The notes below the pieces were generated by a model, which saw only the letters and a list, made by a program, of their open reading frames with translations, did no database searches and had not been told where the DNA came from. A program made the position numbers and the translations under genes. Source: Acidobacteriota bacterium (GTDB lineage Bacteria > Acidobacteriota > Vicinamibacteria > Vicinamibacterales > UBA823). Taken from it: DNA of 64,000 nucleotides. Positions within the stretch are counted from its first letter, which is position 1, and each line of letters opens with the position of its first letter. The stretch spans positions 1-64,000 of the forward strand of contig PCAK01000010.1 of assembly GCA_002730525.1 (NCBI GenBank), in the 5' to 3' direction. Positions 38,656 to 62,243 of this stretch are shown one piece after another.

Positions 38656-38707
38656 TGCCCGCGGCGCGAGATCGCGAGATCGTGACCTCCTGTCGACGAG
38701 ACGAATC

Positions 38708-39763
38708 ATGCGCTGGACGAAACGACGACTGACCGATTACTCCGCGTGCGCTGGCTGAGCGAGCAAGCTCGCCGCGGGCGAGCTCGCTCAGGTGCTGAGC
38801 GATCTGTCGCCGCCGCCTGATGACCGCGTGCTGGTCGACTACCGCACGTCGGACGATGCCGGTGTGTACCGCTGGGACGACAGCTCGGCGCTCGTCCAGA
38901 CCGTCGATTTCTTCACCCCGATCGTCGACGACCCGTTCGCGTACGGCCAGATAGCCGCGGCGAATTCCCTGAGCGACGTGTACGCCATGGGCGGGGTGCC
39001 GCTCACCGCGCTGGCCGTCGCCGGTTTCCCCATCGACGAACTCGAACCCGGCGTGATCCAGTCGATCTTCAAGGGCGGGCTCAGCAAGCTGCGCGAGGCC
39101 GGAGTGGCGCTGCTGGGCGGCCACACCGTCAAGGACGCCGAGATCAAGTTCGGGTACTCGGTCACGGGTCGCATCGATCCCGACCGCGTGCTGTCGAATG
39201 CCGGACTCCAGGCGGGCGATGCATTGCTGTTGACCAAGCCGATCGGCACCGGCATCGTGGCCACCGCCATCAAGAGGGCGCGCGCGCCCGAGGCCGTGGC
39301 CGCCAACGCGATCGGGTCGATGGCGACGTTGAATCGGGCGCCAGCCGATGCGCTGCGCGCCCTGCCGGCCGGAGAGGTGCACGCCTGCACTGACATCACC
39401 GGGTTCGGGCTGGTGGGCCACGTCTGCGAGATGGCCTCGGCCTCCGGTGTCGGCGTGCGCATCGATTCGGCGACGGTCCCCCTCCTCGAGGGCGCGACCG
39501 CGCTGGTGGGCCGGCACCAGACCGCCGGAGGCGATACCAACGCCCAGCACTTCGGAGAACGCACCGAGATCGCCGGGAACGTGAGCACCGATCTGGTCGC
39601 CCTGCTGCACGATCCCCAGACCTCGGGGGGACTCCTGGTTGCCGTGGCCGCCACCGCCCTCGACCGCGCCGTCGCGGCGCTGGCCGAGGCCGGCGTCAAC
39701 GGCGTGACGATCGGCGAGGCCGTTCCCGTGCAGGATGCGAGCGCGCTCGTGTCCATCACCTGA
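38708..39763 (+). CDS. selD: Selenide, water dikinase, a selenoprotein (Sec at TGA 38756-38758)
   Basis: Makes selenophosphate, the selenium donor for Sec-tRNA, from ATP and selenide (351 aa with Sec). A frame starting downstream at GTG 38792 lacks the active site. Reading from ATG 38708 through an in-frame TGA gives RRLTDYSACAG-U-ASKLAAGEL. This matches E. coli SelD (RLTQYSHGAGCGCK) so exactly that Sec17 falls on catalytic Cys17 and Lys20 on Lys20. The rest is typical: VQTVDFFTPIVDDPFAYGQIAAANSLSDVYAMGG, GGHTVKDAEIKFGYSVTG, and the CTDITGFGLVGH segment. Sec-containing SelD is known in other bacteria. It lies 52 bp after parB. A stem-loop of SECIS type follows the TGA. Confidence 0.95.
38757..38789 (+). 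promoter_or_regulatory. Candidate bacterial SECIS hairpin of selD
   Basis: Starting inside the TGA, GAGCGA (38757-38762) pairs with TCGCTC (38784-38789). After a 4-nt bulge (GCAA), GCTCGCC (38767-38773) pairs with GGCGAGC (38777-38783), leaving a GCG loop that begins with G. The loop lies 15 nt after the TGA. Position, strength and loop guanine fit known bacterial SECIS elements, at the short end of the usual spacing. Confidence 0.75.
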
Positions 39764-56542: not shown

Positions 56543-57946
56543 TCAGGGTTGGAGCCGCTTCATCTTCTCGAGGAGCGTCGTGCGCTTCAGGTGGAGCAGG
56601 TCGGCAGCCAGGCGCTTGTTGCCGTCGGCGCGCCCGAGTGCCTGCCGGATCAGTTCGCGCTCGACGTCGTGCACGTAGCGTTCGAAGTCGAGGCCATCGT
56701 CGGGGAACGCGACGCGGACGCTCAGCCCCGGGTCGACGGCGGCCTGGATCTCCGGCGGCAGGTCGGCGGCCTCGATCTGCGTGCGGCCTTGACTGAACGC
56801 GAGTGTTCGCTCGATGACGTTCTCGAGCTGCCGGATGTTGCCCGGCCAGGCGTAGGCCATCAACTGCCGCATCGCTTCCTGCGACAGGCCGACGTCGGGC
56901 CGCGGTGGGACGAGTTCGCGTCCGAGTCGTTCGAGAAAATGTTGCGTCAGGAGCGGGATGTCGTCCCGTCGATCGCGGAGCGGCGGCAACGGAATCGGAA
57001 TCACGTTCAGTCGGTAGAACAGGTCCTCCCGAAACGTGCCATCCGCGACGAGCTGAGTCAGGTCGGAGTTGGTCGCCGCGATGACCCGCACATCGATTTT
57101 GATCTGCCGCGTGTCCCCGATCCGCTCGAGTTCCCGTTCCTGCAAGACGCGCAGCAGCTTGGCCTGCAGGGCCGGCGTCATCGTGCCGACCTCGTCGAGG
57201 AAGAGCGTGCCACGATGGGCCTGTTCGAGCCGCCCCGGCCTCGATTCGACCGCTCCGGTGAATGCGCCGCGGACGTGGCCGAACAATTCCGCCTCGAGCA
57301 GCGACTCGGGAATGGCGCCGCAGTTCAGCGCGGCGAGGCGGTGGGCGCTGCGCGGGCTGTTGTGGTGAATGGCCCGGGCCACGAGTTCCTTACCGGTCCC
57401 GGTCTCACCGGTAATCAGAATGGTACTGTTGGTCGGCGCGATCATCTTGAGCCTCTCAAAGAGGTCGCGCATCACCTGGCTGAGGCCAACCAGGCCTTCG
57501 AAGTCGAAGAAGAAATCCTGCCGGTAGCGCTCCTCGAGCTGCGAGCGCAGGTAGGCGTTCTCGCTCTTCAGGCGCCGTTGTTCGAGCGCCGCCGTGAGAA
57601 CGTGCAACAGCTCGTCGAACTGAAAGGGTTTGGTGATGAAGTCCGCCGCGCCGACCTTGATCGCCTCGACCGCACCCTTCACCGTGCCGAAGCCGGTCAC
57701 GACGATCCCGACGATCTCCGGGTAGCGGTCGATCGCCGCTTTCAGCACCTGGCTGCCGTCGACGCCGGGCAGCCTGAGATCGGTGACGACGACATCGAAG
57801 GCGAAATCCGCCAGTTTGGCGAGGGCCTGCTCCCCACTCTCCACCTGCGTGACGCTGTAGCCGTGGTCGGTCAGACGCTCGGCGGTCACCTCCCGCAGTG
57901 CCGCCTCGTCCTCGACGATCAGCAGATGTTTTTCATTTTCAGTCAT
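56543..57946 (-). CDS. Sigma-54-dependent response regulator (NtrC family)
   Basis: A 467-aa three-domain regulator. The receiver domain (about 5-120) has phospho-acceptor D56 in VVVTDLRLPG. The AAA+ domain has Walker A GETGTGKE (180-187), GAFTGA loop (227-232) and GTLFLDEVGTM. The Fis-type helix-turn-helix at the end reads GRADGNKRLAADLLHLKRTTLLEKMKRL. The intact GAFTGA loop means it should activate sigma-54 promoters. No kinase is adjacent on the same strand, but a hybrid kinase and a stand-alone phosphoacceptor domain lie within 4 kb. Confidence 0.95.
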   Translation of the reverse strand: MTENEKHLLIVEDEAALREVTAERLTDHGYSVTQVESGEQALAKLADFAFDVVVTDLRLPGVDGSQVLKAAIDRYPEIVGIVVTGFGTVKGAVEAIKVGAADFITKPFQFDELLHVLTAALEQRRLKSENAYLRSQLEERYRQDFFFDFEGLVGLSQVMRDLFERLKMIAPTNSTILITGETGTGKELVARAIHHNSPRSAHRLAALNCGAIPESLLEAELFGHVRGAFTGAVESRPGRLEQAHRGTLFLDEVGTMTPALQAKLLRVLQERELERIGDTRQIKIDVRVIAATNSDLTQLVADGTFREDLFYRLNVIPIPLPPLRDRRDDIPLLTQHFLERLGRELVPPRPDVGLSQEAMRQLMAYAWPGNIRQLENVIERTLAFSQGRTQIEAADLPPEIQAAVDPGLSVRVAFPDDGLDFERYVHDVERELIRQALGRADGNKRLAADLLHLKRTTLLEKMKRLQP

Positions 57947-58133
57947 TTAGCAGGGTGGCGGTATTTTGACACCCAGCCGTCTGGCGGTCAAGAAGGCGGC
58001 GCGGATCGTTCTATAGGCTCGGTCACGCCCTGCCGATAGTCATTGGGAACGCGGCAGAGACGCCGTGAGGGGATCGGCGTCGCGAGATTGCAGCCCAACG
58101 TTGCAAGGCTCCGCGACGCCAACGAGCAAGACC

Positions 58134-58349
58134 ATGATTGTCGACCGAAAGACCATCTCGATCATGAAGGCGTGTGAGCTGGTGGGCGTCAGCCGCCGGA
58201 CGATCTACAACTGGATCGCCAGCGGCAAGGTGGAGTACGTCCGCACGGCGGGCGGCTCGGTGCGAATCTTCGTCGACACGTTGTGGCGAGATCCGTCCGG
58301 CACCTCGAAAGCCGCGATCTGGCCAGAAACCGCCCGCAAAGAGGCCTGA
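58134..58349 (+). CDS. Small helix-turn-helix (excisionase/MerR-like) DNA-binding protein
   Basis: A 71-aa protein with one winged helix-turn-helix: TISIMKACELVGVSRRTIYNWIASGKVEYVRTAGGSVRIFVDTLWR (about residues 7-52). It is the type often annotated as excisionase-family or HTH_17. The tail is short and unstructured. The ATG at 58134 is preferred over an upstream frame with unlike sequence. There is no integrase or other phage gene nearby, so it is more likely a regulator than an excisionase. It is divergent from the NtrC-type gene and 53 bp before the phosphoacceptor gene. Confidence 0.8.
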   Translation: MIVDRKTISIMKACELVGVSRRTIYNWIASGKVEYVRTAGGSVRIFVDTLWRDPSGTSKAAIWPETARKEA

Positions 58350-58402
58350 GCATCGTGCTCAGCGCCGACCGTGCTCCAGACCCACATCGAGAAAGGACGC
58401 AT

Positions 58403-58621
58403 GTGGACGAGCTGACAGATCTCAGCCGGCTATTTCATCGGCTGAACAACCAGCTCGGAATCATCCTCGCCAACGCTGAGCTACTCGAAGCGAAAGCCAC
58501 CGACGAGATGAGCCGATCACGTGCGGCGCAGATCGTGGCCAGCGTGCTCGATGCGATGAGCACGGCAGGCGAGATCCGCACCGATCGGGAGTCGCCCGCG
58601 TCCGACGCCTCGCACGGCTGA
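58403..58621 (+). CDS. Stand-alone histidine-kinase phosphoacceptor (DHp-like) domain
   Basis: A 72-aa protein from GTG 58403, which follows AAAGGA at a good distance. Residues 8-28 read SRLFHRLNNQLGIILANAELL, which lines up with the H-box of histidine kinases; the hybrid kinase at 59905 has GVAHELNNPLATILTWSERL. So His12 would be the phosphoacceptor. A second helix (AAQIVASVLDAMSTAGEIR) completes a two-helix hairpin. There is no ATPase domain and no room for one. It may relay phosphate or dimerise with a kinase. The frame opens further upstream but without sensible sequence. Confidence 0.65.
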   Translation: MDELTDLSRLFHRLNNQLGIILANAELLEAKATDEMSRSRAAQIVASVLDAMSTAGEIRTDRESPASDASHG

Positions 58622-58971
58622 CCGCGCGTATCCCGCCGATCCGCACCCGAGTCACGGCCTCCCACGACGTCCTACGAGAGTCAACGTGTTGGCGGCTGCA
58701 CTGTTTTGCAGTCAAATACTCGACACTTTTCGGACCGATTCTCGTCAATCCTTCCCGCTCTTTCCCGTCGGATCAATTCTGCAACCAACTGATTATGTTG
58801 AAGTTATGCGCAGTGACTCCATTGAAATCATGTTCGCTACATTTTCGTTTTTGCGGTTGGTACCTCTGTTGCGATGAAGGGCCTCGCCACCGCGGCTGAC
58901 CGGGTTCGGCCGGCGTGTCTCCAGCGTCGTCCCGTTCCGGTGCTCCGCGAGTGGCGAGGAGGGATCTCGAC
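58622..58971. other. Intergenic region upstream of the sigma-factor gene
   Basis: 350 bp without a convincing gene. The middle (58690-58875) is AT-rich compared with its surroundings and probably contains the promoter of the sigma gene. A strong AGGAGG ribosome-binding site lies at about 58957-58962. I found no sigma-54 or sigma-28 promoter with correct spacing. Confidence 0.6.
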
Positions 58972-59895
58972 ATGCCGCAGCAGCAGACTGTCACGGCTGA
59001 CCAACAGCACCGTATCGAGGCCGGCGTCCCGTTCGTGGAGGCCCTGGCCCGACGCGTCGCGGCGTCGATGCCGCACTCGATCGATATCGGGGATCTGGTG
59101 CAGGACGGGATGATCGGCTTGATCGACGCCGCGCACCGGTTCGACGCGGGGCGGGGCATCAAGTTCGAAACATTCGCCGAGCGCCGCGTGCGCGGCGCCA
59201 TGATCGACGCGCTGCGCCGCGACGCATGGCCGCGGGGCATCCGCCGGGTACGCCGCGAACTCGAGGCGGCGCGCGAGTCGCTCCGGCGAGAGCTTGGCTG
59301 CGAGCCGTCGATGGCCGACCTGGCCAAGCGCGTCGGTTCCGACGAGACTCGGCTCGGTCGCACGATCGTGCGGATCAACACGATCGAGTCGACCTCTCCC
59401 CTGGCGACGTCAGACTCGATCGACGAGGCGAGTCTGCCACCGGTCATGGTGCCGTCGGAGCCGCCATCGCCTGACAAGGCGCTGGAGCAGTGTGAGATCA
59501 AGGGCCGCGTCCGCGACGCCATCGCCTCGCTACCTCCGCGCGAGCGGAAGGTGATCGGCCTGTACTATTTCGGCGAAGTCACGATGAAACGGATCGGTGC
59601 CGAGATCGGAGTGAACGAGTCACGAGTGTCGCAGCTGCACGCGCGGGCGATCCAGCGGCTACGGAAGGCGCTCGCGCAGCAGTTCGAATCGGATGCGGCC
59701 GCGGCGAACGCCCTCGGGGCCGTGCTGGTCACGATGCCGACACGGGCCACGCGCGCGTCCCGCACCTCGGCGGCCAAGGTGAAGACACCCCGCGGCGTCG
59801 TGCTGCCGTATCAGAAGCGGAGTCGACCGAAGTCGGCGCGCCCGGCCACCCGGCCGTCGGTCGCGGCCGAGGCGCCCCGCGCCGTGGCGCGGTAG
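58972..59895 (+). CDS. RNA polymerase sigma factor of the FliA/WhiG type
   Basis: A 307-aa group 3 sigma factor. Region 2 is at about residues 20-90 (DIGDLVQDGMIGLIDAAHRFDAGRGIKFETFAERRVRGAMIDALRR). A region 3 with LEAARESLRRELGCEPSMADLAKRVG follows. Region 4 is at about 175-235 (IASLPPRERKVIGLYYFGEVTMKRIGAEIGVNESRVSQLHARAIQRLRKAL). A basic C-terminal tail of ~65 residues is unusual. No flagellar or sporulation genes are in the window, so its regulon is open. The start at 58972 is supported by a perfect AGGAGG. Confidence 0.92.
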   Translation: MPQQQTVTADQQHRIEAGVPFVEALARRVAASMPHSIDIGDLVQDGMIGLIDAAHRFDAGRGIKFETFAERRVRGAMIDALRRDAWPRGIRRVRRELEAARESLRRELGCEPSMADLAKRVGSDETRLGRTIVRINTIESTSPLATSDSIDEASLPPVMVPSEPPSPDKALEQCEIKGRVRDAIASLPPRERKVIGLYYFGEVTMKRIGAEIGVNESRVSQLHARAIQRLRKALAQQFESDAAAANALGAVLVTMPTRATRASRTSAAKVKTPRGVVLPYQKRSRPKSARPATRPSVAAEAPRAVAR

Positions 59896-59904
59896 CGGGA
59901 CCGA

Positions 59905-61563
59905 TCAGGCCAGGACTTCGCGCGCGACTCGAAGCAGATCGCCGAGTCGGAACGGCTTGGCGAGCCACCGGCAGCCGGTGTCGTCGAGGAACCGTTCGGC
60001 ATCGGTGCCGGCGACATCGCCGGTCACGAACACGATTCGCTGCTTGAGGTTGGGCGCGATCTTGGCGGCGGCTTGGTAGAACGCCGTGCCGTCCAGGCGC
60101 GGCATCTTCAGGTCACAGATCACGAGGTCATAGGTGCGCTCGCGCACGCGTGCGAGCGCGGCCTCGCCGTCACCCGCGCGGTCGACGCGGAAACCCGCAT
60201 CGCCGAGCGCCTCGGCGACCGCGGCCGCCAGCGAGGGTTCATCCTCGACGAGGAGCACGACGGCGCCGCCCCCGATGTTCGCGGGCTGGACCGCGGGCGC
60301 CGGCGCGGGCAATCGGATCTTTCCAGCCGTAGCCGGGAACTCCAGCCGGAACGTCGCGCCCTCGTCCGGCGCGGAGGTCAACCCGATGCGCCCGCCGTGT
60401 TCCTGCATGATCGCGTAGGCGACAGTCAGGCCGAGGCCGGTGCCCTTGCCGACCTGTTTGGTCGTGAAGAACGGGTCGAAGATACGGCCCTGCACTTCAT
60501 CCGGAACGCCCGGGCCATCGTCGCTGACCTCGAGCACGACGGACTCGGCTTCGGCGTCGTGCCACGTTCGCGTGACGATGGTGCCCTGTCCGCGCGCCGC
60601 CAGCATGGCCTGCTCGGCGTTGATGACGAGGTTGAGGAGGACCTGCTTCACCTGGTGAGGGTCGGCGAAGACCTGTGGGAGGCCGACAGCCAAGGCGTCG
60701 ATGACCGAGATATTCGAGACCCGCTGTTCGTACGCGCGCAGTGACATGGTCTCACGCACGACCTGATTGACATCGACCATGGCGCGCGTCGTGTGCCGCT
60801 TGCGGGCGAAGGTCAGGAGGTTTCGGACGATCTTCGCGGCGCGTTCGGATTCGCCGAGGATCGTTTCGAGACCACGGCGCGTCGCGTCGTCCACGGTCCG
60901 TTCGGCCAGCCGCTCGGACCAGGTCAGAATCGTGGCCAGGGGGTTGTTCAGTTCGTGGGCGACACCCGAGATCGTCTGTCCCAGTGCCGCGAGCTTCTCG
61001 GCCTGGAGCAGCTGGTGGTAGAGATCACGCGCTTGATCTTCCAGCTTCTTCCGTTCGCTGACGTCGCGCATCAGCGCTTCGACGCGGAGCGCGCTCCCGC
61101 GTCTGCGTTCGGCTCGGGCCGTGACCTCGACCCACGTCGGCGTCCGGTCGGCCCGCCGCAGGCGGAGGAGGTAGTCGGTCACGGCGCCATCACGGGTGAG
61201 TCGGTCGATGAATGCCGCGCGCGCCTGAGGGTCGACGAAACGGTCGGCTTCGAACGGCACCACGGCCGCGTGGGCGGTCTCCGTCGGGTAGCCGAACATG
61301 AGCTTCAGGTGCGGGTTGGCAACGATGGTGTCGGTCGCGTCGGCCGTGAGGTTACCGATGTAGACACCCTCGTGCACCACCTCGAACAGACGCGCGAACG
61401 CCGTGGCGGGCGGGTTTCGGGGCTTGCGCGGTGCGGGCTTGCGCGTGGATGTTCGAGCGAGTTTTCGGGCGGGCTTTCGAGCGGGCTTCGCTGAGCGCGT
61501 CCGGGACACGGTTCGCTTGCGAGTCACGGGGTGGGCTGCGCCACTCTGGGGGCCTAAGCGCAC
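59905..61563 (-). CDS. Hybrid sensor histidine kinase (PAS-HisKA-HATPase-REC)
   Basis: A 552-aa protein without a membrane segment. A basic repeat-like start (RKPARKLARTSTRKPAPRKPRNP) is followed by a PAS domain (about 55-170). The phosphoacceptor domain has H203 in GVAHELNNP. The ATP-binding domain has NLVINAEQAM, DDGPGVP, FFTTKQVGKGTGLGLTVAYAI. The receiver domain has D484 in VICDLKMPRLDG. It probably senses a cytoplasmic signal. It converges on the sigma gene (9 bp) and follows the PCYCGC gene by 44 bp on the same strand. The start is a GTG; an in-frame GTG 12 codons later is also possible. Confidence 0.92.
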   Translation of the reverse strand: MRLGPQSGAAHPVTRKRTVSRTRSAKPARKPARKLARTSTRKPAPRKPRNPPATAFARLFEVVHEGVYIGNLTADATDTIVANPHLKLMFGYPTETAHAAVVPFEADRFVDPQARAAFIDRLTRDGAVTDYLLRLRRADRTPTWVEVTARAERRRGSALRVEALMRDVSERKKLEDQARDLYHQLLQAEKLAALGQTISGVAHELNNPLATILTWSERLAERTVDDATRRGLETILGESERAAKIVRNLLTFARKRHTTRAMVDVNQVVRETMSLRAYEQRVSNISVIDALAVGLPQVFADPHQVKQVLLNLVINAEQAMLAARGQGTIVTRTWHDAEAESVVLEVSDDGPGVPDEVQGRIFDPFFTTKQVGKGTGLGLTVAYAIMQEHGGRIGLTSAPDEGATFRLEFPATAGKIRLPAPAPAVQPANIGGGAVVLLVEDEPSLAAAVAEALGDAGFRVDRAGDGEAALARVRERTYDLVICDLKMPRLDGTAFYQAAAKIAPNLKQRIVFVTGDVAGTDAERFLDDTGCRWLAKPFRLGDLLRVAREVLA

Positions 61564-61607: not shown

Positions 61608-62243
61608 CTACGGCACCGCCGGCGTCGGAGTCTGGGTCATGTAGTGCGGGCCGTAGCTCCGCTCGATCGTCTCTCGGATGTCGGCCAGTGCCGTGCCCGC
61701 CTCGTGCATGTTCATCGCGTCACGCGCGACATCAATGCAGATGGCTCAACCCATGCCGTGAGGTTCCCACCTCACGACGTTCCCTTCGGCGTCGCGACTC
61801 GCGACAAAGCAATCGTGGTTGTCGCCGTGGCCGAAATTCTCGCACCCGCAGAAGCACGGGACGTAGTCGAGCACCTCGGGGTTCTCGGCGGCGAACAGGT
61901 AGACCGATCGGATGACCTCGAGCGGTCGTGGGGGTGCGAACCCCGGCATCGGCAGCGGCGGCAGGTTCGATGACGGCAGGGTCCGTGCGACGGGACCGCG
62001 GGGCGCCGCCTCCTCGTGTGAGGTCGCCGGCGTCATGGGCGCGGCAGCGCTGGTCGCTGGTGCCTGCGCACGAGCCGAGGTCGCGGAACCGGCCGGAGGC
62101 TGATTCGGCGCCGACATCGACCAGACGCCAGCCGCGACCGCCGCCACGATTACGCCGAGAATCAGGCCCGTCGGTTTCCCTGACGTCCGGTGTTCCGACG
62201 TTCGGCGACGCGCCGTCGGTTCCCGATATTTCTTCGAAGACAT
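61608..62243 (-). CDS. PCYCGC-motif protein, candidate selenoprotein (Sec at TGA 61748-61746)
   Basis: Membrane-anchored protein (211 aa with Sec). Residues 25-42 form a membrane helix. A low-complexity Ala/Pro stretch follows, then the family core VLDYVPCFCGCENFGHGDNHDCFVASRD (PCFCGC at 129-134, C145). The frame meets TGA after EPHGMG. Read as Sec it continues U166-AIC-IDVARDAMNMHEAGTALADIRETIERSYG to a TAG at 61608-61610. As I recall the family, proteins of this type carry a Cys pair and an IR..I...Y helix here, so the TGA replaces the first Cys of a CxxC-type motif. A strong hairpin follows the TGA. The function of the family is unknown; metal binding or redox chemistry outside the membrane is likely. 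The hybrid kinase follows 44 bp downstream. Confidence 0.82.
61705..61739 (-). promoter_or_regulatory. Candidate bacterial SECIS hairpin of the PCYCGC gene
   Basis: On the minus strand, TGCAT (61739-61735) pairs with ATGCA (61709-61705). After a 3 x 3 internal loop, two wobble pairs and TCGCG (61729-61725) pair with CGCGA (61719-61715). The loop is CGTGA (61724-61720), with G as its second base. The loop starts 21 nt after the TGA. These features match the general bacterial SECIS layout. Confidence 0.65.

Follow-up and report, generated by a model that had tools for sequence, protein, structure and literature searches.

Does an in-frame TGA in a PCYCGC-family gene of a Vicinamibacterales bacterium end the protein, or is it read as selenocysteine (Sec)? 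The question is raised by a frame in the window, the 64,000-nucleotide stretch of acidobacterial DNA that was analysed, which opens with an ATG at 62243 on the minus strand, meets the TGA at 61748-61746 (codon 166) right after EPHGMG, and runs on for 45 more codons, AICIDVARDAMNMHEAGTALADIRETIERSYGPHYMTQTPTPAVP, up to a TAG at 61610-61608. A sequence-only reading had described exactly this frame, TGA, 45-codon continuation and TAG, all of which hold, and had assigned the product to the PCYCGC family (Pfam PF13798), which is borne out by a score of 92.9 bits for the read-through product over an alignment of residues 109-208 to profile positions 52-151. It had furthermore held that the protein loses a conserved end without read-through, and indeed the score drops to 49.6 bits when the product is cut at the TGA, a difference of 43 bits between two products that both lie above the curated cut-off of 25 bits. 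The name PCYCGC is right for the family but not for the motif of this particular protein, which has PCFCGC at residues 129-134, followed downstream by U166AIC169. The coordinates of the features are collected in Table 1.

Table 1. Positions in the window of the PCYCGC-family gene, its elements and the neighbouring or related genes discussed in the text.
Feature	Position	Strand	Basis or remark
PCYCGC-family selenoprotein gene (predicted), 211 residues with Sec166	61608..62243	-	Pfam match; read-through conserved in relatives
TGA codon, predicted to be read as selenocysteine (Sec166)	61746..61748	-	every Cys-form relative has Cys at this column
U166-A-I-C169 motif, N-terminus of helix 167-181	61737..61748	-	alignment and structure model
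PCFCGC motif, residues 129-134; Cys130, Cys132 and Cys134 invariant	61842..61859	-	alignment
Predicted signal anchor, residues 27-43	62115..62165	-	sequence reading; helix 29-39 in model, with low confidence there
Putative SECIS hairpin, 7-bp stem, CGUGA loop (61720-61724)	61713..61731	-	core conserved in Sec forms, compensatory pairs
PAS-HisKA-HATPase-REC hybrid histidine kinase, 44 bp downstream	59905..61563	-	Pfam
selD	38707..39760 (outer limits approximate)	+	own in-frame TGA 38756-38758

Compared with a genome of the same genus, the 45 codons after the TGA show six synonymous differences, in third positions, and no non-synonymous ones, and the alignment collapses beyond the TAG. When the window was scanned for TGAs conserved in that genome, the PCYCGC TGA and one in selD were the only ones within family-supported genes; the remaining candidates look antisense to genes and are without family support, and further read-through selenoproteins in the window were therefore rejected. 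A PCYCGC homologue is found in 29 of 60 related genomes, where the column corresponding to codon 166 is either TGA or Cys, and in 93 of the 162 genomes of the order, with 38 genomes counted as carrying the TGA form. Among 77 named public loci with a complete motif the column holds TGA in 33, Cys in 44 and nothing else, and in 48 genome loci the distribution is 23 Sec to 25 Cys. The presence of Cys at position 166 of homologues, the occurrence of other TGA orthologues across the order as well as in two further phyla, and the conservation of the downstream helix among relatives are all in agreement with the selenoprotein that the sequence-only reading had proposed. It should also be mentioned that in three genomes (G338, G346 and G347) a Sec form coexists with a Cys form of the protein.

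In bacteria, SelB together with GTP and Sec-tRNA-Sec binds a SECIS hairpin and inserts Sec, while SelA makes the Sec-tRNA-Sec and SelD supplies selenophosphate. A putative SECIS hairpin, the loop of which starts 21 nt after the TGA, is shown by comparative genomics to mark the UGA in Sec-form genes only. Of the 30 distinct Sec-form sequences of the order, 29 have its 18-nt core, GTCGCGCGTGACGCGATG, in identical form and the remaining one has a single loop substitution, while the core is absent from every Cys-form gene examined, among genome loci and named loci alike; the first 15 nt of the core are found in 32 of 33 Sec loci versus none of 44 Cys loci in the named set. Furthermore, codons +6 to +10 (V-A-R-D-A) are the same in all 45 pairs formed by ten Sec-form representatives, the fraction of same-residue pairs with identical codons at these positions being 0.37-0.45 in Cys forms. 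Two Bacillota Sec forms keep the CGUGA loop and have the stem pair 21-33 changed from C-G to A-U, and a plasmid gene of Thermomicrobium roseum likewise keeps the loop, with pair 22-32 changed from G-C to A-U; these changes are compensatory and preserve the hairpin. In a shuffle control, from which kinship is not removed, the covariation score was reached by 1 of 500 shuffles and the number of both-side pair changes, which are carried by three sequences only, by 6 of 500. Some double changes also appear if the register is slid by +3, but then just 46% of the cells are paired versus 99% in the real register. By its folding energy in the single sequence, the hairpin region cannot be told apart from shuffles (z -0.19), and the case for the RNA element is therefore built on conservation; no Rfam family matched the hairpin in a search of the window and the SECIS region.

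The Sec machinery is present in this genome, with selA at 552 bits, selB at 332 bits, selD at 352 bits and a tRNA-Sec above the Rfam cut-off, all four being over their cut-offs. Within the order, selA is found in 36 of 38 Sec-form genomes versus 31 of 51 Cys-only genomes (Fisher p = 1.7e-4, a value that is uncorrected for kinship and too small, since related genomes are not independent), and the two Sec-form genomes in which selA was not detected, G006 and G049, are 81% and 90% complete, respectively. Among Bacillota, two TGA forms come from genomes with selA and two Cys forms from genomes without it. PCYCGC genes with a TGA at the same UxxC position occur in Bacillota metagenome-assembled genomes in which selA is present, at L168 (JACPQU010000054.1) and L171 (JACDOE010000001.1). 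The selD of the window has its TGA (38756-38758, plus strand) in the context SACAGUASKLAAGEL, at the position of the catalytic Cys, with a strong hairpin directly 3' of it. This Sec-containing SelD would be a second selenoprotein gene in the window, with UGA likewise read as Sec, here at a catalytic position, but it belongs to a well-known family and the sequence of its hairpin differs from that of the PCYCGC gene.

The TGA might nonetheless be a real stop, or a recent nonsense mutation or a sequencing error, with a protein that ends at residue 165. This is how translation table 11 reads the codon and how gene callers treat genes of this kind, that of Thermomicrobium roseum in RefSeq being an example, but about 38 genomes of the order and 33 of the named loci retain the TGA, the sequence behind it evolves as protein and accounts for half of the Pfam match, and the RNA core goes with the TGA, so that this notion has next to no chance of being right and is in practice refuted. 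The frame would also be open if suppression or a changed code let the TGA stand for a standard amino acid such as Trp. However, relatives have Cys and never Trp at this column, the Sec machinery is present and a SECIS follows the TGA, and such decoding is therefore just as exceedingly improbable. We can conclude that the PCYCGC protein is almost certainly a genuine selenoprotein, in which SelB with GTP and Sec-tRNA-Sec would bind the hairpin behind UGA166 and Sec would be inserted at this codon.

As to the history of this residue, a tree of the 77 domains, in which the Sec/Cys column was masked, requires five state changes by parsimony and at least three by well-supported branches. The simplest account for the order would be an ancestral Sec that was repeatedly replaced by Cys, because a single SECIS core is common to all Sec clades within it.

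The protein does not represent a new selenoprotein family, since Sec in PF13798 is already catalogued. A CYCXC family protein (hypothetical protein OS_HP4) of PF13798 with a UxxC motif is among the known prokaryotic selenoproteins in a 2026 review (PMC13188914), and Sec in the CYCXC/OS_HP4 family is also reported in PMC9312934. Acidobacteria are not mentioned by that name in either review. OS_HP4 (NCBIfam NF041379, named CYCXC family (seleno)protein) and the window protein have in common the Pfam family, the CYCGC motif, Sec in a UxxC and Cys homologues elsewhere, the U166-x-x-C169 of the window protein and the published UxxC of OS_HP4 being compared here as motif descriptions. Unlike OS_HP4, the window protein has a long membrane-anchored N-terminus, comes from Acidobacteriota and has a longer domain, of which 87 residues align to 76 model positions; its score of 68.6 bits against NF041379 is below the equivalog cut-off of 90, and the Bacillota Sec forms score 76.6 and 65.3 bits. 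What is added here is a membrane-anchored acidobacterial branch below that cut-off, its SECIS and the repeated exchange of Sec and Cys, and furthermore a cultured organism in which RefSeq ends the gene at the corresponding TGA.

This organism is Thermomicrobium roseum DSM 5159, where RefSeq gene TRD_RS14940 (L211:5836-6282; NC_011961.1 573004-573450) ends at the TGA, although homology runs beyond it (UGICIDITRDVMR...) and a SECIS-like hairpin with the same CGUGA loop is found. TRD_RS14940 is thus predicted to encode a selenoprotein that has gone unrecognised in a cultured type strain. In the Thermomicrobium roseum plasmid, the one sequence of this organism that was searched, selA is absent.

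The N-terminus of the window protein consists of a basic stretch followed by LILGVIVAAVAAGVWSM (residues 27-43, as read from the sequence), and this single signal-anchor-like helix suggests that the domain lies outside the cytoplasm. In 41 aligned sequences C130, C132, G133, C134, H139, C145, R150, G154, H162, U/C166 and G183 are invariant and C169 is conserved in more than 90%. The domain is modelled with a pLDDT of about 97 (pTM 0.88 for the trimmed model), and Sec166 is placed just ahead of helix 167-181. Searches of the PDB by sequence and fold and of BFVD by fold gave no significant match, and no thioredoxin-like fold was found. A lead towards the periplasmic domain of CcmH/NrfF (PF03918) was dropped, since there is no PF03918 profile match, the fold likeness is weak and non-significant (2hl7, E 2.2, TM 0.52 by target), and what is held in common is a short helix pattern (hhalign probability 19.5% over 28 columns) with a different Cys pattern. 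The tail T-P-T-P-x-P (window 61611-61640), for which neither helix nor strand is predicted, is kept in PCYCGC proteins of Acidobacteriota and Bacillota. The Bacillota PCYCGC motif-containing lipoproteins (PF13798) indeed have the same domain, the conserved Cys/His pattern and the TPTPxP tail, but they are anchored through a lipobox rather than a signal anchor, and most of those read have Cys at the Sec position; they are often found beside metal-resistance genes (PMC13068155).

The most likely role is that of an extracytoplasmic or envelope thiol/selenol protein in redox or soft-metal (copper-type) handling. One N-terminal helix would anchor the compact domain outside the cytoplasm, Sec166 and Cys169 at the start of the helix may form a reversible selenenylsulfide, and the invariant C130, C132, C134, H139, C145 and H162 may constitute a structural or metal site. 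Selenoprotein, mechanism and proposed role taken together, this explanation is very probable; a redox-or-metal role as such, in which redox and metal are not separable, is rather likely.

If the protein is an envelope oxidoreductase, Sec166 and Cys169 would be a catalytic redox pair of peroxidase-like or disulfide-exchange-like type and the other Cys and His residues structural. This notion stems from the UxxC at the N-terminus of a helix in the model, which is the usual redox arrangement, from the exchange of Sec with Cys only, and from a DsbD gene 7.8 kb upstream in this genome and within the examined flanks of 19 of the 77 loci; on the other hand there is no thioredoxin-like fold or PDB fold match and DsbD is merely a distant syntenic neighbour, and we consider the chances of this reading to be somewhat short of even. 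An envelope protein that binds or delivers a soft metal of copper type, with Sec as a ligand or as a redox gate for the metal, is a tentative possibility and would make use of the invariant Cys, His and U/C166 positions together with the nearly invariant C169. Seven annotated plasmid loci were viewed, and in five of them a Cys-form relative from Bacillota is accompanied by metal genes (P-type metal ATPases, multicopper oxidases, a four-helix copper protein, CDF exporters and metalloregulators), the other two having none; most of the metal neighbours thus come from plasmids, which are rich in resistance genes and form a biased sample. Among chromosomal relatives, L172 lies near CopC-CopD and DUF1775 and L171 near COX2/COX1. 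The metal neighbourhoods in Bacillota point to soft-metal or envelope redox work, yet genes of this kind were not recognised next to the acidobacterial loci and none adjoins the PCYCGC gene in the window. Finally, the protein could act as an extracytoplasmic sensor in partnership with the adjacent hybrid histidine kinase and the nearby NtrC-type regulator, since a same-strand hybrid kinase follows it immediately in 71 of 77 loci, with Sec and Cys forms alike. This is however unlikely, for the kinase occurs in 53 of 60 order genomes, including most of those without PCYCGC, so that it does not need the PCYCGC protein, can be rejected as its obligate partner, and makes the neighbourhood alone weak evidence for a partnership; furthermore, the whole block of fabZ, kinase, FliA-type sigma factor, HTH protein and NtrC-type regulator is synteny conserved through the order. 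In the window, positions 56543-61563 hold the hybrid kinase, a convergent FliA/WhiG-type sigma factor, a small HTH protein and an NtrC-type sigma-54 regulator, and the same gene order is seen in nearly all Vicinamibacterales loci read.

It is a more doubtful proposal that these proteins form a widespread overlooked branch of envelope selenoproteins that use Sec for copper-type metal handling in Acidobacteriota, Bacillota and Thermomicrobiota, with a SECIS common to the three phyla and with Sec repeatedly swapped for Cys when the Sec machinery was lost. For the family, automatic annotation that truncates genes at the UGA means that a likely redox or metal centre is lost from view; in the sets examined about 38 genomes of the order carry the Sec-form gene, and RefSeq truncates that of one cultured type strain, Thermomicrobium roseum. 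The natural series of Sec and Cys forms, in which the SECIS hardly varies, offers clean material for studying what makes a lineage keep or drop Sec, and Thermomicrobium roseum and the selA-bearing Bacillota are organisms in which selenium in this uncharacterised family could be tested directly.
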